Positions 981 to 39,900 of a stretch of 64,000 nucleotides of DNA are shown here, in pieces. The translations under genes and the position numbers were made by a program. Position 1 is the stretch's first letter, and every line of letters begins with the position of its first letter. Source of the DNA: an uncultured Desulfovibrionaceae bacterium (lineage in GTDB: Bacteria; Desulfobacterota; Desulfovibrionia; Desulfovibrionales; Desulfovibrionaceae); the NCBI GenBank assembly GCA_944325195.1, contig CALUZB010000026.1, positions 1 through 64,000 of the forward strand. The letters are read 5' to 3'. The notes under the pieces were generated by a model. That model ran no database searches. It had not been told where the DNA came from and worked only from the letters and a program-made list of their open reading frames with translations.

Positions 981-1805
981 TCAGGTCAGCTCCGTGCTGT
1001 AATTGCTGATAAACAGCTCCCCGGCGGGAACGCTTTTGCGGTTGCTGCAGGAGTATCTCGTCCGCACCTCCTCAATTGGAAACTCCCGGAAAGTCTCCCG
1101 CACACCGGGGGTGTCGTTCAGGCTGAGCAGGAATTTCCCCTTAAGCCCGGCCAGTTGCTCGGCCAGTTTCGTAAAGTCTTCCCGGCTGAAAACCCCTGCT
1201 CCGTAGTAATCCTCACAGTCCCAGTAAGGCGGGTCGATATAAAAGAAGGTATCCGCCCCGTCATAGCGGGCAATTACCTCGGAGTACGACAGACACTCCA
1301 CGTTTACCCGGGCCAGGCGCAGGTGGGCGGCGGATAAAGATTCTTCAATGCGCAACAAATTAAACCTGGGGGCGCTGGTTATGCCGTAACCGTAACTGGG
1401 GTTAACAATCCGCCCCCCAAACCCCACCTGATGCAGATAATAAAACCTTGCCGCCCGCTGGATATCGGTCAGGGTATCGGGATTGGCCGCTTTCAGGCGC
1501 TCAAACTCGTCGCGGGCCACCAGGGCCCACTTGAAACAGCGCACAAATTCCTCCAGATGCCACTGAACGCAGCGGTAGAGGTTAACCACGTCTTTGTTGA
1601 TATCGTTGATTACCTCAACCTTGCTTTCCGGTTTGCGGAACAGCACCCAGGCCGCGCCCGCGAAAGGCTCACAATAACAGGTGTGGGGGGGGATGCGCTC
1701 AATAATCCGCCTGGCCAGCAGACTTTTACCGCCCGTCCAGCCCGCCAGAGGCGGACGGATGAACGGGGCCGCGCGGTTAAAATTCGGTTTTTCAGTTTCA
1801 GGCAT
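981..1805 (-). CDS. dam: DNA adenine (N6) methyltransferase, D12/Dam class
   Basis: A 274-residue protein predicted to transfer a methyl group from S-adenosylmethionine to adenine N6 in duplex DNA. Visible motifs: the PPLAGWTGGKS segment near residue 18-28 (motif X), EPFAGAAWVLF near 46 (motif I, SAM binding) and IDPPYW near 190 (catalytic motif IV). Length is usual for the family. The gene follows com by 33 bases, the place held by mom in phage Mu; other Mu-like prophages also pair com with an adenine methylase. The ATG at 1805-1803 and its ribosome-binding site lie inside a perfect hairpin (1801-1832), so translation is probably blocked until Com acts. Target sequence cannot be read from the protein. 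Confidence 0.92.
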   Translation of the reverse strand: MPETEKPNFNRAAPFIRPPLAGWTGGKSLLARRIIERIPPHTCYCEPFAGAAWVLFRKPESKVEVINDINKDVVNLYRCVQWHLEEFVRCFKWALVARDEFERLKAANPDTLTDIQRAARFYYLHQVGFGGRIVNPSYGYGITSAPRFNLLRIEESLSAAHLRLARVNVECLSYSEVIARYDGADTFFYIDPPYWDCEDYYGAGVFSREDFTKLAEQLAGLKGKFLLSLNDTPGVRETFREFPIEEVRTRYSCSNRKSVPAGELFISNYSTELT

Positions 1806-1832
1806 AGAGCCTCCTTGATGAGGCTCTATGCC
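1801..1832 (-). promoter_or_regulatory. Hairpin sequestering the dam start codon and ribosome-binding site
   Basis: A perfect 13-bp inverted repeat (arms GGCATAGAGCCTC and GAGGCTCTATGCC) around a 6-base loop. In the dam mRNA the 3' arm contains most of the AAGGAGG ribosome-binding site and the AUG itself. In Mu, a hairpin over the mom start region is opened by Com; position and logic match here. Direct action of this Com is inference. Confidence 0.85.
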
Positions 1833-1838
1833 TTCTGG

Positions 1839-1985
1839 TTATGCGGTCTGGCCGCTGGTTATCCGATTGATGGTCTTGCAGCGCGGACATTTAATCGCAA
1901 TGTCCACGACCTCGCCTTTAAGCAGCAGGCGGCCGCACTGGCCGCAGCGGATTTCCCTTTCCGGTTGCTTTTCGGCTCTTGGCAT
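1839..1985 (-). CDS. com: Com-like zinc-finger translational activator
   Basis: A 48-residue protein with two Cys pairs, RCGQCG (residues 13-18) and KCPRCK (32-37), the zinc-binding arrangement of the Mu Com family, which binds mRNA and activates translation of the DNA-modification gene downstream. The ATG at 1985 has AAGGGG 6 bases upstream. The stop lies 6 bases before the hairpin that covers the dam start, matching the com-mom layout. The protein is too short for automated gene calling but the Cys pattern and context are strong. Confidence 0.9.
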   Translation of the reverse strand: MPRAEKQPEREIRCGQCGRLLLKGEVVDIAIKCPRCKTINRITSGQTA

Positions 1986-33826: not shown

Positions 33827-34345
33827 TTAACCAGCCGACCCAAGTGCTGCACGGTGTAAATTGGCAGATCCTTTAAGTGCCTCCTTAAGATTTTTTATTT
33901 CCTGTTCAAGCATGTATATTTGCATTTCCTTTCGTCCAATCTGTATTCGAAGTTCCGCATTCTCAGATAGCAGTAAATTTTTCTCTTTCAGTAATTCAAT
34001 AATTTCTTGTTGAAGCTTGGGAATGTCCGACATGTCGGACGCTTTTTTTTCAACAAGGCTAGTATTTTCAGGATGTTGCGTTTCTGCGTTATCTGAAAAA
34101 TGTCCGACATGTCGGACATTTTTCAGATAACGCTCCTCTTGATACATAGATCCTTCACCCGTTACAAGCCATTGTTCACTTATATTAAATTGTTCACATA
34201 TTGCCTCTAAAATTTTCTTTTTCGGTGTTCTTCCGTGGACTTCATAGTTTACAACAGCTCTTTGAGTAATACCAAGAAGTAACGCAAATTCTTTTTGAGT
34301 CAGTTTTCCTCTTACCTCTCTAATTCTATTGCCAATCCCAAGCAT
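33827..34345 (-). CDS. Lysogeny repressor, Cro/CI-type HTH with coiled-coil C-terminus
   Basis: 172 residues. HTH: GNRIREVRGKLTQKEFALLLGI then TQRAVVNYEVHGRTPKKKIL (about 5-50). Linker 75-110 (NVRHVGHFSDN ... ASDMSDIPK) is encoded by palindromic DNA; residues 110-160 form a coiled coil for oligomerisation. There is no peptidase domain, so induction would need an antirepressor, consistent with two such cassettes in the prophage. Divergent from the early promoter. Confidence 0.88.
   Translation of the reverse strand: MLGIGNRIREVRGKLTQKEFALLLGITQRAVVNYEVHGRTPKKKILEAICEQFNISEQWLVTGEGSMYQEERYLKNVRHVGHFSDNAETQHPENTSLVEKKASDMSDIPKLQQEIIELLKEKNLLLSENAELRIQIGRKEMQIYMLEQEIKNLKEALKGSANLHRAALGSAG
34025..34133. 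repeat. Palindrome pair inside the repressor gene, including a perfect 48-bp palindrome
   Basis: GTCCGACATGTCGGAC at 34025-34040 and at 34102-34117, 77 bp apart. The second is the core of a perfect 48-bp palindrome, 34086-34133. The element is in frame with the repressor and related to 11638-11734. Confidence 0.88.
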
Positions 34346-36377: not shown

Positions 36378-38192
36378 ATGTCTTCTCATCTTACTTCAGA
36401 ACAAATCCGACTCGTAGGAGACGCGGCGCGCGAACTTGACGCAGCGGACGCATGTTCCGGCGAGCGAGGAGCTATTGTGGCCCGTCTTGCCGACACCCTG
36501 AAGGTATCTGTAAACACCGTCTATAGTTACCTTAAACGGCATGCGGGTTGGAGCAGCGGTAAAAAGCCGCGCAAGGGTAAAGGCCAGACATGCGTACCAC
36601 AGGAGCTTTGCCGTATGGCAGCCGGGATTGTTCTTTTTGGAGCCCGCGCAAACGGCAAAAAGCCCATGACATTAAAAATGGCTGTACGCGTTCTGAAGGA
36701 GAATGGAAAAGGCGTAGTCAATCCAGTAACAGGAGAAATTACAATGCCTTCAGTAGAAACAATCAGCCGGGCGATGCGGCAATACGGCTGTCATCCCGAT
36801 CAGCTCAGCAAGGGAACGCCATCGAGCCAAGTCCGCTCATTGCATCCTAATCATGTATGGGAACTCGACGCGTCAGTCTGCGTCCTATACTACATCCGAG
36901 GCACAAAGCGGGTGGGAATTATGGACGAAAGAAAATTCAATGAGAAAAAGCCTGCCAATCTTGTTGAAATTCAAAACAAACGCGTTGTCCGCTATATCGT
37001 TGTAGATCACGCTTCTGGCGTTTTTTATCTGCATTACGAGCAGGCCGCAGGCGAGAATGCCCAGGGGGTATTGCGCACCTTGATTAACTTTGCCGTAAAC
37101 CGAGGGCATCAAGACCCGGCGCATGGTTTGCCACGTATCCTGTACATGGACCCAGGTTCAGGTAACGCCTCGTCCCTTGTCATGGGATTTTGCGAGCAAT
37201 TAGAAATCAGGGCTATCCACCATAAACCAGGTGAGGCCAGAGCTACAGGCGCGGTGGAACAATGCCATAACCTCGTTGAGTGTCAGTTTGAAAGCCGTCT
37301 AAGGTTTATGGAGATTCCAGACCTTGCCTCCCTGCAAAAGGAAGCAGACCGTTGGAGGCGACATTTCTGCGCAACGGCAATACATTCCAGAACAAAAGTT
37401 ACGCGTAACGGAGCCTGGCTAACCATTCAAGAGGAGAATCTGCGTATAGTAGAAAAGGAAATTCTGGAAGCCATCGCCGCCTGGAAAGATGTCAGACGCC
37501 AGGTCGGCTCAGACCACATACTAACCGTAGATACACGCACATCCTTTGGCACCCAATCTTACGATTTAAGCGACCTGACTTATCACGGCCTTGGAATTAA
37601 GGACTCTGTACGGGTTCGCCTAAATCCCTTCAAGGCTCCGGAAATCACTGTTGTTATGGATATGCCCGACGGAGAGGAAAAACTGTTCAATGTAAAACCA
37701 ATCGAAAAAGACCGTTATGGCTTCAATCTTGAAGCGCCTGTATTCGGCGAAACCTTCAGGTCTCAACCAGACGGTAAAACAGATACGTTACTGAAACAGA
37801 TTAAAAAGGAAGCATTCGGAGCCGCTACCCTGGAAGATGCGGAGAAGCTGCGTAAGTCAGGCCAGCTTCCATACACGGATATAAATATCATGGCTGATAT
37901 TAAAGATGCCCCTCTGTACCTTGGCAGGACAGGACAAGCTTTCACGCTTGACTCTCCAACCGCAGACCCCACGCCTATGTCCCGTGTTGCCTTTGCCATG
38001 ATGATGCAGCGGGAACATGCTGACGTGTGGCATGAAGGCAATGCGTCAGAGTGTATGGAATGGCTCGTGGCCCGCTACCCTGATTCAATTCCCGGCAGTG
38101 ACATCAATACACTGATTGCCAAAATGCATGAGCATTTCGCGCCGAGCCGGGCAACTATTATCCCATTTGAAAGGAGCGTCGTATGTCAATAG
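36378..38192 (+). CDS. A: Mu-type transposase A (DDE recombinase)
   Basis: 604 residues. N-terminal HTH region (TLKVSVNTVYSYLKRHAGW), then the RNase-H-like core: VWELDASVCV near 165 (first Asp), RILYMDPGSGNASS near 252 (second Asp) and GAVEQCHNLVE near 294 (Glu); C-terminal Mu-transposase beta-barrel (VDTRTSFGTQSYDLSDL) and end domain. Performs integration and replicative transposition with MuB. Confidence 0.96.
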   Translation: MSSHLTSEQIRLVGDAARELDAADACSGERGAIVARLADTLKVSVNTVYSYLKRHAGWSSGKKPRKGKGQTCVPQELCRMAAGIVLFGARANGKKPMTLKMAVRVLKENGKGVVNPVTGEITMPSVETISRAMRQYGCHPDQLSKGTPSSQVRSLHPNHVWELDASVCVLYYIRGTKRVGIMDERKFNEKKPANLVEIQNKRVVRYIVVDHASGVFYLHYEQAAGENAQGVLRTLINFAVNRGHQDPAHGLPRILYMDPGSGNASSLVMGFCEQLEIRAIHHKPGEARATGAVEQCHNLVECQFESRLRFMEIPDLASLQKEADRWRRHFCATAIHSRTKVTRNGAWLTIQEENLRIVEKEILEAIAAWKDVRRQVGSDHILTVDTRTSFGTQSYDLSDLTYHGLGIKDSVRVRLNPFKAPEITVVMDMPDGEEKLFNVKPIEKDRYGFNLEAPVFGETFRSQPDGKTDTLLKQIKKEAFGAATLEDAEKLRKSGQLPYTDINIMADIKDAPLYLGRTGQAFTLDSPTADPTPMSRVAFAMMMQREHADVWHEGNASECMEWLVARYPDSIPGSDINTLIAKMHEHFAPSRATIIPFERSVVCQ

Positions 38193-39337
38193 CCTTAGCT
38201 GAAATCCTGGACAGATGCGCTCCATCACGGCGTCAGCTTGCAGGCATGCTGAACATATCACCCGCGGCGCTTAGCCAGATGCTGAACCACGGGAGTTTAC
38301 CAAAACGATGCTGGCCTGAATTACAGCAAGCGATCATCAATTTAGCCGCAGAAAATAATATCGACAGCTCTGAAATAGAATCGGCGCTGAAAGAACTTGA
38401 GCAAAGCACGGAACCCGCCCCGGAAACGGCGGATAAGGAGGAACCCATGATCCTGCGTAAGCAAACTCTCACCATGCAGGCCAGACAGGTTTTCAGTCTG
38501 ACGCGCAACCCCTTCAGTGATCCGGAACATCCGGCGGATGTTTATATGTCACCAAGCATCCGCTTCGCGCGTGAAACAATGTATCAAACAGCCGTAAGCA
38601 ACGGATTTTTAGCTTTAATTGGCGAGTCCGGCAGTGGTAAATCCACACTTAAAGATGAGCTTATTACTCGCATAAGTATGGAAAATCTGCCGGTAATAAT
38701 AATCGAACCCTATACCTTGGCAATGGCAGATAATGAGGCACAGGGTAAACCACTTCGCTCATCCCATATTGCCGAGGCAATTATCAGTACCGTACAGCCC
38801 GGCGCAAAGATTCCCAGAAGCCCGGAGATGCGTTTCCGGCGTTTACATGAAATCCTGAAAGCCAGTCATACGGCAGGGATGCACCACTGCCTGATTATTG
38901 AGGAAGCGCATGACTTGCATCGTCATACGCTCAAAAGTCTGAAACGATTTCACGAACTGAAAGACGGCTTGGCCAGGCTTCTCTCAATAATCCTGATCGG
39001 CCAAACAGAACTTGAGAAAAAGTTACGTGTCACCGACGCCAGTGTGCGTGAAGTTGTACAACGTTGTGACATAGTCCATTTGCATCCTATCCAAAATGCC
39101 GGTGAATATCTGCATCACCGCTTTGAACGGATGGGAGCTGATTTTGAAGCAATCTTTACCCCTGAATCTCTGGATGCCATCCAGGCAAGCCTGACAGTCT
39201 CTCAGGATCATAATGGCGAGGGAATATATATGGGATATCCCCTTATGATTGCCAATTTAGCAATAGCAAGCATCAACCTTGCCGCGAGCGTTGGTGAGAA
39301 ACGTGTAACCGCTGACGTTGTAAAAATGGTGAGATAA
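38183..39337 (+). CDS. B: Transposition ATPase B (MuB family)
   Basis: 384 residues. N-terminal HTH (RQLAGMLNISPAALSQMLNHG) followed by an AAA+ domain: LIGESGSGKSTLKDEL near 153 (Walker A) and HCLIIEEAHDLHRHT near 235 (Walker B). Starts 10 bases inside A. Delivers target DNA to the transposase and gives target immunity. Confidence 0.95.
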   Translation: MSIALAEILDRCAPSRRQLAGMLNISPAALSQMLNHGSLPKRCWPELQQAIINLAAENNIDSSEIESALKELEQSTEPAPETADKEEPMILRKQTLTMQARQVFSLTRNPFSDPEHPADVYMSPSIRFARETMYQTAVSNGFLALIGESGSGKSTLKDELITRISMENLPVIIIEPYTLAMADNEAQGKPLRSSHIAEAIISTVQPGAKIPRSPEMRFRRLHEILKASHTAGMHHCLIIEEAHDLHRHTLKSLKRFHELKDGLARLLSIILIGQTELEKKLRVTDASVREVVQRCDIVHLHPIQNAGEYLHHRFERMGADFEAIFTPESLDAIQASLTVSQDHNGEGIYMGYPLMIANLAIASINLAASVGEKRVTADVVKMVR

Positions 39338-39351
39338 AAAGGAGCAATATC

Positions 39352-39900
39352 ATGGCAAAACGAGTAAAACCAATGTTAAATGTACCCACAATTACCACTC
39401 TTGAGGAAGTTGACTCCACCTTGGCAGTGATTTCTATCCGAAAGCGGGAACTTTCCCTGCTCGAACTTGGCCTGAAAGAAAATGTTGATACGCTCAAACT
39501 CAGGTGCGCTGAACTAAGCGAACCAATTAAGCAAGAGATTGAGCTGCTTGAGCAATCGCTCATCCGCTTCGCTGAATCAAAGAAATCTGAGCTTTTCACA
39601 AAGAAACGCTCAAGAACTCTTAATTTTGGAGAGATTGGTTTCCGCGCCTCATCCAGCGTAAAAACAATGAAGAAAACCACATGGGAGCAGGTTCTCGCAT
39701 TGTTGCGAACCAAGGCTGACACCGTCTTTACCGGCTGTATCCGCGTAAAACATGAGGTAGACAAAGAGGCGCTTCGTCAACTTTCAGCAGAGCAACTGGC
39801 AGAGGTTGGGTGCCGCCTGGAACAGACAGATACGTTTTATTATGAACTTGATGAAGTTGAGCTTCACGGAACCCAGACACAGGAGATGCATAATGAATAA
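39352..39900 (+). CDS. gam: Gam-like host-nuclease inhibitor
   Basis: 182 residues, Phage_Mu_Gam family: an N-terminal coiled coil then TLNFGEIGFRASSSVKTMKK and TWEQVLALLRTKADTVF. Binds DNA ends, Ku-like, and blocks exonucleases. Confidence 0.93.
   Translation: MAKRVKPMLNVPTITTLEEVDSTLAVISIRKRELSLLELGLKENVDTLKLRCAELSEPIKQEIELLEQSLIRFAESKKSELFTKKRSRTLNFGEIGFRASSSVKTMKKTTWEQVLALLRTKADTVFTGCIRVKHEVDKEALRQLSAEQLAEVGCRLEQTDTFYYELDEVELHGTQTQEMHNE

Follow-up and report, generated by a model that had tools for sequence, protein, structure and literature searches.

We report that in the window, that is, the whole 64,000-nucleotide stretch of Desulfovibrionaceae DNA analysed here, the start codon of a phage adenine methylase gene, dam, is buried in a perfect hairpin just after a gene for a Com protein. 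We propose that this junction is a late, Com-activated translational switch on the phage DNA adenine methylase, a reading to which we give a probability of roughly two in three. Counted in its favour are the conservation of the stem, the enrichment of Com sites, the complementarity of these sites to the ribosome-binding site, the agreement with a motif selected in vitro, the Mu-like context and the signs of purifying selection. The features concerned are collected in Table 1.

Table 1. Features of the com-dam junction and of the surrounding prophage (positions in the window)
Feature	Positions	Strand	Description
D12-class N6-adenine DNA methyltransferase (dam), 274 aa	981-1805	minus	PF02086 E=3.1e-29, DPPY motif intact
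Inhibitory hairpin	1833-1800	minus	14-bp stem including the flanking A-U pair, 6-nt loop
Shine-Dalgarno AAGGAGG of dam	1816-1810	minus	first three bases in loop, remainder in stem
Candidate proximal Com site B, AGGC(AUAGA)GCCU	1833-1821	minus	same position as relatives' AGGC(CNNGA)GCCU
Candidate distal Com site A, GCGG(CCAGA)CCGC	1855-1843	minus	C-N2-GA loop on 4-bp stem
com	1985-1839	minus	48-aa zinc-finger protein, CGQC...CPRC; PF10122 match
Structured leader element	2078-2146	minus	two covarying hairpins in 33 sequences; model R1 E=3.9e-10
MuA-like gene	36378-38192	plus	
MuB-like gene	38183-39337	plus	
Gam-like gene	39352-39900	plus	

A conserved hairpin over the dam start codon

On the minus strand, the UAA of com is followed after 6 nt by the hairpin and then by dam. 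The sequence-only reading had described a perfect 13-bp hairpin at this distance from com, and the stem was confirmed at 1832-1801 (GGCATAGAGCCTC-ATCAAG-GAGGCTCTATGCC), reaching 14 bp with the flanking A-U pair. The same reading had placed both the ribosome-binding site and the AUG of dam in the 3' arm; the AUG (1805-1803) and most of the Shine-Dalgarno sequence are indeed there, but the first three bases of the latter lie in the loop. The buried AUG is the credible start for dam, since no further in-frame ATG, GTG or TTG occurs ahead of the conserved GGKS motif in the reading frame. The assignment of the product as a D12-type N6-adenine methylase also stands (Table 1), and its solved relatives include E. 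coli Dam and the DpnII methylase.

The isolated stem has a predicted energy of -26.6 kcal/mol. Perfect stems of at least 11 bp with loops of 3-12 nt number only 7 in the 64-kb window, with 0.1 per window expected by chance under a first-order Markov model, and none of at least 13 bp arose in ten simulated windows. Within the genome, the hairpin stretch is found only in the window and at one homologous com-dam junction. No relevant match for the com-dam RNA was obtained in Rfam 15 at E values of up to 1. A strong, GC-rich palindrome between two genes might equally be a transcription terminator, a mobile palindrome or a chance structure, and we hold it very improbable that any of these accounts for the hairpin. 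A terminator reading is contradicted by the absence of a U-run after the hairpin, and a mobile palindrome by the absence of repeats elsewhere in the genome; as for chance, the expectation is near zero, and the stem covaries and is fixed on the start codon. On these grounds we rejected a terminator, a dispersed repeat and a chance origin.

Homologous com-dam junctions are present in C17 (G000:C17, L090, L002), the second com-dam copy of this genome, and in three relatives, G009, G020 (apparently Desulfovibrio cuneatus DSM 11391) and G171. Compensatory changes among relatives are what the switch envisaged in the sequence-only reading would lead one to expect, and the stem proved to be conserved, with two such pairs. 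The window, G009 and G171 share the seven innermost pairs, GAGCCUC/GAGGCUC. Moving outward, the following pair is G-C in G171 but A-U in the other three (window, G009, G020), and beyond it G009 and G171 have G-C at a pair that is U-A in the window and G020. This makes two compensatory pairs (U-A to G-C and A-U to G-C) among G020, G009 and G171. The stem of C17 has one A.C break, and that of G020 an internal 2x2 loop. The comparison of these pairs was manual, since an extra base before the AUG in G009 and G171 shifts the pairing partner and makes counting by alignment column unsuitable for the start-codon stem. One alignment row gave the C17 junction minus its insertion, and none of the conclusions depends on that row. 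An IUPAC pattern for the hairpin, AAGGCNNNGAGCCTCN{4,16}GAGGCTC, matched in 3 of the 288 family genomes, always at a com-dam junction, while the reversed control had no match in the same 288 genomes and the strict hairpin pattern none among the viral contigs.

The two other copies in the genome have altered junctions. In C17, where dam is intact, Com site A is split by an insertion of 106 bp that is rich in hairpins and occurs once in the genome. C23 (G000:C23, L003 at ~1028-1075) is a remnant in which the first 16 codons of com are fused in frame to dam after a deletion that took away the entire proposed switch and lies at a short shared sequence resembling GCAGCGG.

Com and the RNA sites that accompany it

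The protein encoded by com, noted at the outset as a Com homologue of 48 residues with two CxxC pairs, is a genuine Com. In profile searches it matches PF10122, the Pfam Com family, with E=3.3e-15 and 55.7 bits (cut-off 22.9) and the PHROG translational regulator profile at 6e-14. Between the window and the C17 copy, dN/dS is 0.10 for com and 0.145 for dam, values that point to purifying selection on both genes.

The motif selected by SELEX with the Com protein of H. sputorum, CC(N)2-3GAG, occupies a hairpin loop that is closed by a C-G pair; in Mu, the native Com site, GAAUGCCUGCGAGCAUCCC, adjoins a stem containing GUG (PMC6483171). A cysteine-pattern search of genomes, viral contigs and phages supplied 143 non-redundant Com-like loci, in which we tabulated by loop type, over the 150 nt after the zinc finger, hairpins of four Watson-Crick pairs and 5-6 nt loops. 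A C-N2-3-GA loop on a 4-bp hairpin was found at 98 of the 143 loci, a conservative count because the set includes a few unrelated zinc ribbons; the next commonest loop type reached 20, and shuffled controls gave a mean of 3.3 and a maximum of 7. No comparable C..GA loop peak was seen in the zinc-finger coding region. This hairpin is the core of the published in-vitro Com motif.

The C..GA hairpins comprise 36 stem sequences, closed by C-G (115), G-C (14), U-A (13) or A-U (4) pairs. Outside the fixed GC/GC core, the pairs are of Watson-Crick type at 83 and 87 of the 103 sites, as against 33 and 41 after permutation (a count made on an earlier set of 85 loci), and loop position 1 is C in 94 of the 103 GCN-type sites. 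Moreover, Com-type sites occupy all three reading frames as well as positions past the com stop; the constraint therefore acts on the RNA, and protein-level conservation was rejected as the cause of the motif. In the 160 nt before D12 genes, C-N2-3-GA sites are present in 40 of 55 cases with com versus 7 of 90 without it, and the background rate of the site in the window is 0.028 per 150 nt. Paired sites are frequent, with spacings of 22 nt (31 pairs), 23 nt (8) and 20 nt (6), and the loop of the proximal site lies ~21-34 nt ahead of the start of the next gene. Four Methylotenera-type com-dam loci (L116, L119, L182 and L183), from which the usual motif is absent, carry a related GAGCGTCATGAACGCC hairpin with another closing; these hairpins possibly belong to a Com subtype with shifted specificity.

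The window has a candidate site at each of two positions. The loop of site A starts 46 nt before the AUG, and its hairpin, encoded within the com codons for SGQTA, lies 9 nt upstream of the start-codon hairpin. G171 has GCGG(CGAGA)CUGC at this position, and in G020 site A is not clean. The loop of site B starts 24 nt before the AUG and 22 nt from site A, and the site is at the same time the 5' arm of the inhibitory stem. At site B, G020, G009 and G171 all carry AGGC(CNNGA)GCCU, and in the window and C17 the first loop base is A instead of C; in the window this A pairs with the U of the AUG, completing the stem. Relative to CC(N)2-3GAG, each of the two window sites is off by one position, site A being closed by a G-C pair, a minor natural variant, and site B having AUAGA. 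Judged from these sites, the window junction is likely to be responsive to Com.

The hairpin stretch also appears to serve as an antisense strand. We compared the pairing of each upstream segment with its own ribosome-binding site against its pairing with those of other loci (2000 permutations, which reduce but leave some shared ancestry; for the wide set, start codons were assigned automatically, by rule). At com-dam loci the duplex energy was -13.4 versus -10.9 permuted, with none of the 2000 permutations as good, and at com-less dam loci -10.3 versus -9.8, with 40 of 2000 as good. In the presence of a Com site, the values were -14.6 versus -12.0 for dam and -14.2 versus -12.1 for other genes (0 of 2000 in both cases), and at loci lacking a Com site complementarity did not go beyond permutation (511 of 2000 as good for dam, 55 of 2000 for other genes). 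The effect is present for the A segment and for the B segment. At several loci the stretch that pairs is recognisably the Com hairpin: in L191 and L230, for example, the hairpin contains GCCACGAG, which pairs with CUCGUGGC at the GUG start codon. Since the same stretch doubles as the strand that pairs with the ribosome-binding site, the Com hairpin and the burial of the start often exclude each other. The start-codon hairpin of the window is real, but complementarity that would bury the ribosome-binding site is a general property of Com loci, before dam and other genes alike, and not a peculiarity of this junction. Mean ribosome-site accessibility predicted by folding showed no difference between com-dam and com-less dam loci, because part of the Shine-Dalgarno sequence sits in a loop, and the permutation test of complementarity was used instead.

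A proposed switch and its alternatives

We propose that, by default, the 5' arm after com would pair with the Shine-Dalgarno sequence and AUG of dam, keeping dam silent. This arm and the hairpin just upstream would also be able to form two Com-binding hairpins, A at -46 and B at -24. Com produced from that same RNA would trap the antisense strand within these small hairpins; the helix over the ribosome site would then be blocked or displaced, and dam translated. The capture is probably a co-transcriptional event: at the time A and B fold, the 3' arm has yet to be made, and the finished stem is far stronger than site B alone (-26.6 versus -4.8 kcal/mol). In the predicted stepwise folding, A forms, then B, and the long stem replaces B as the 3' arm emerges, an order that suggests capture during transcription. 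Ribosomes terminating com beside the stem probably assist. Binding by the window Com, activation and co-transcriptional capture are what we infer from the arrangement as a whole, and methylation only late in the lytic cycle, as predicted in the sequence-only reading, and an anti-restriction role would follow by analogy with Mu and from the position of the genes. The sequence-only reading had supposed that Com opens the start-codon hairpin, as in Mu. The Com protein, the buried AUG, the covarying stem and the com/mom-like layout are in keeping with this, but the target of Com has to be drawn more widely than that hairpin, to take in site A (1855-1843) and the 5' arm in its capacity as site B.

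Several observations were counted against a Com switch. Both window sites fall short of an exact match to CC(N)2-3GAG; the stem owes its perfect pairing to the replacement of C by A in site B, which could mean drift to a permanently off state; in G020 the stem is interrupted by an internal loop and a clean site A is lacking, and C17 has a broken pair and the 106-bp insertion; and mean accessibility of the ribosome-binding site is the same at com-dam and com-less dam loci. The second of these bears on the idea that the switch of the window prophage is locked off or decaying, with a stem perfected, and recognition by Com weakened, by the change in site B. Consistent with it, the window and C17 both have A where C so strongly prevails at loop position 1, C23 is the remnant of a com-dam deletion and C17 carries an insertion in site A. 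We nevertheless consider it quite unlikely, since com and dam are intact and under purifying selection between the copies, and since site A keeps its C-N2-GA loop. Plain translational coupling is a different matter: ribosomes ending com would melt the 5' arm and load on dam, with no need for the Com protein. The com UAA does lie only 6 nt before the stem, and com overlaps the start of the next gene in 63 of 95 loci with Com sites. Coupling leaves unexplained, however, the conserved and covarying C-N2-3-GA hairpins, their match to the in-vitro motif and their scarcity before com-less dam genes; moreover, the com stop of C17 is 122 nt upstream of the aligned dam start, and yet stem and dam persist. 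As the entire explanation coupling is therefore rather unlikely, but as a co-explanation it is a serious one, which goes beyond the sequence-only reading, and com-terminating ribosomes may co-operate with Com.

How Com opens its target RNA has been described as unknown, and its role before other genes as unexplored (PMC6483171, PMC6240691). Our comparison of loci yields a concrete, testable rule for what Com recognises, where its sites lie and why binding would free the start codon; Com targets would become predictable from sequence, and the Mu paradigm would come to include adenine methylases as well as other genes. With its compact 14-bp stem, the version in the window makes the two competing structures easy to test. 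In our estimate the balance tips slightly towards a broader view, in which Com-binding hairpins constitute a general class of protein-triggered RNA switches in phages: ~22-nt-spaced pairs of C-N2-3-GA sites would double as antisense to the ribosome-binding site of whichever gene follows com, binding and burial being mutually exclusive.

Known Com systems and the prophage setting

The com-mom module of Mu shares with the window junction a Com homologue directly upstream of a DNA-modification gene, a C...GA-loop hairpin just before the start-codon stem and a location at the distal end of the late strand. The Mu site is AUGC(CUGCGA)GCAU, its loop 26 nt before the GUG, in a 19-nt Com site. The two differ in that the target in Mu is Mom, whereas the com target gene in the window encodes a D12 methyltransferase of the PF02086 family; Mu has one site and the window two site positions 22 nt apart; the proximal site of the window is inside the inhibitory stem and the Mu site beside it; the stem has 14 bp in the window and ~5 in Mu; and com stops before dam in the window but overlaps its target gene in Mu. 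The window junction would work like com-mom, but it is not itself com-mom, since its target is not Mom. Pseudomonas phage B3 and its relatives (UMP151 and similar) also have com-dam, with a D12 methylase ~50% identical to that of the window and C...GA hairpins upstream of dam. In these phages, however, com overlaps the dam start, there is no compact perfect stem, and the strand complementary to the ribosome-binding site lies at a greater distance upstream, so that the loop is longer. A PF10122 gene likewise precedes the target gene at the Com-linked bacteriocin, lysis and levansucrase loci of Pseudomonas, but the targets are other than phage modification; the general role of Com in this setting has been described as unexplored (PMC6240691). 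Our analysis included one Pseudomonas prophage com locus (DVM-2008).

The MuA/MuB-type transposition genes and Gam (36378-39900) identify the element in the window, by gene content, as a Mu-like prophage. Its minus strand carries a late block with terminase, portal, head, sheath, tape measure, baseplate and tail fibre genes, and com-dam is the last module, at the distal end of this strand. Mu-type control of com/mom transcription involves a GATC cluster and a C-activated late promoter before com; a single GATC (2057-2060) was noticed by eye in the com leader of the window. The structured leader element (Table 1) may provide further control, outside the switch proper. It is located 60-200 nt ahead of com, or ahead of dam at loci that lack com, and is confined to the family of the window (12 of 59 relatives searched), nearly all matches adjoining com or a D12 gene; it had no Rfam match in the loci scanned. 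A 211-aa open reading frame on the plus strand (2166-2801) separates the com leader from the tail-side genes upstream and looks inserted because it is absent from the C17 copy. Elsewhere in the window, an intergenic, perfect 22-bp inverted repeat with a 4-nt loop (34086-34133) precedes the early genes.
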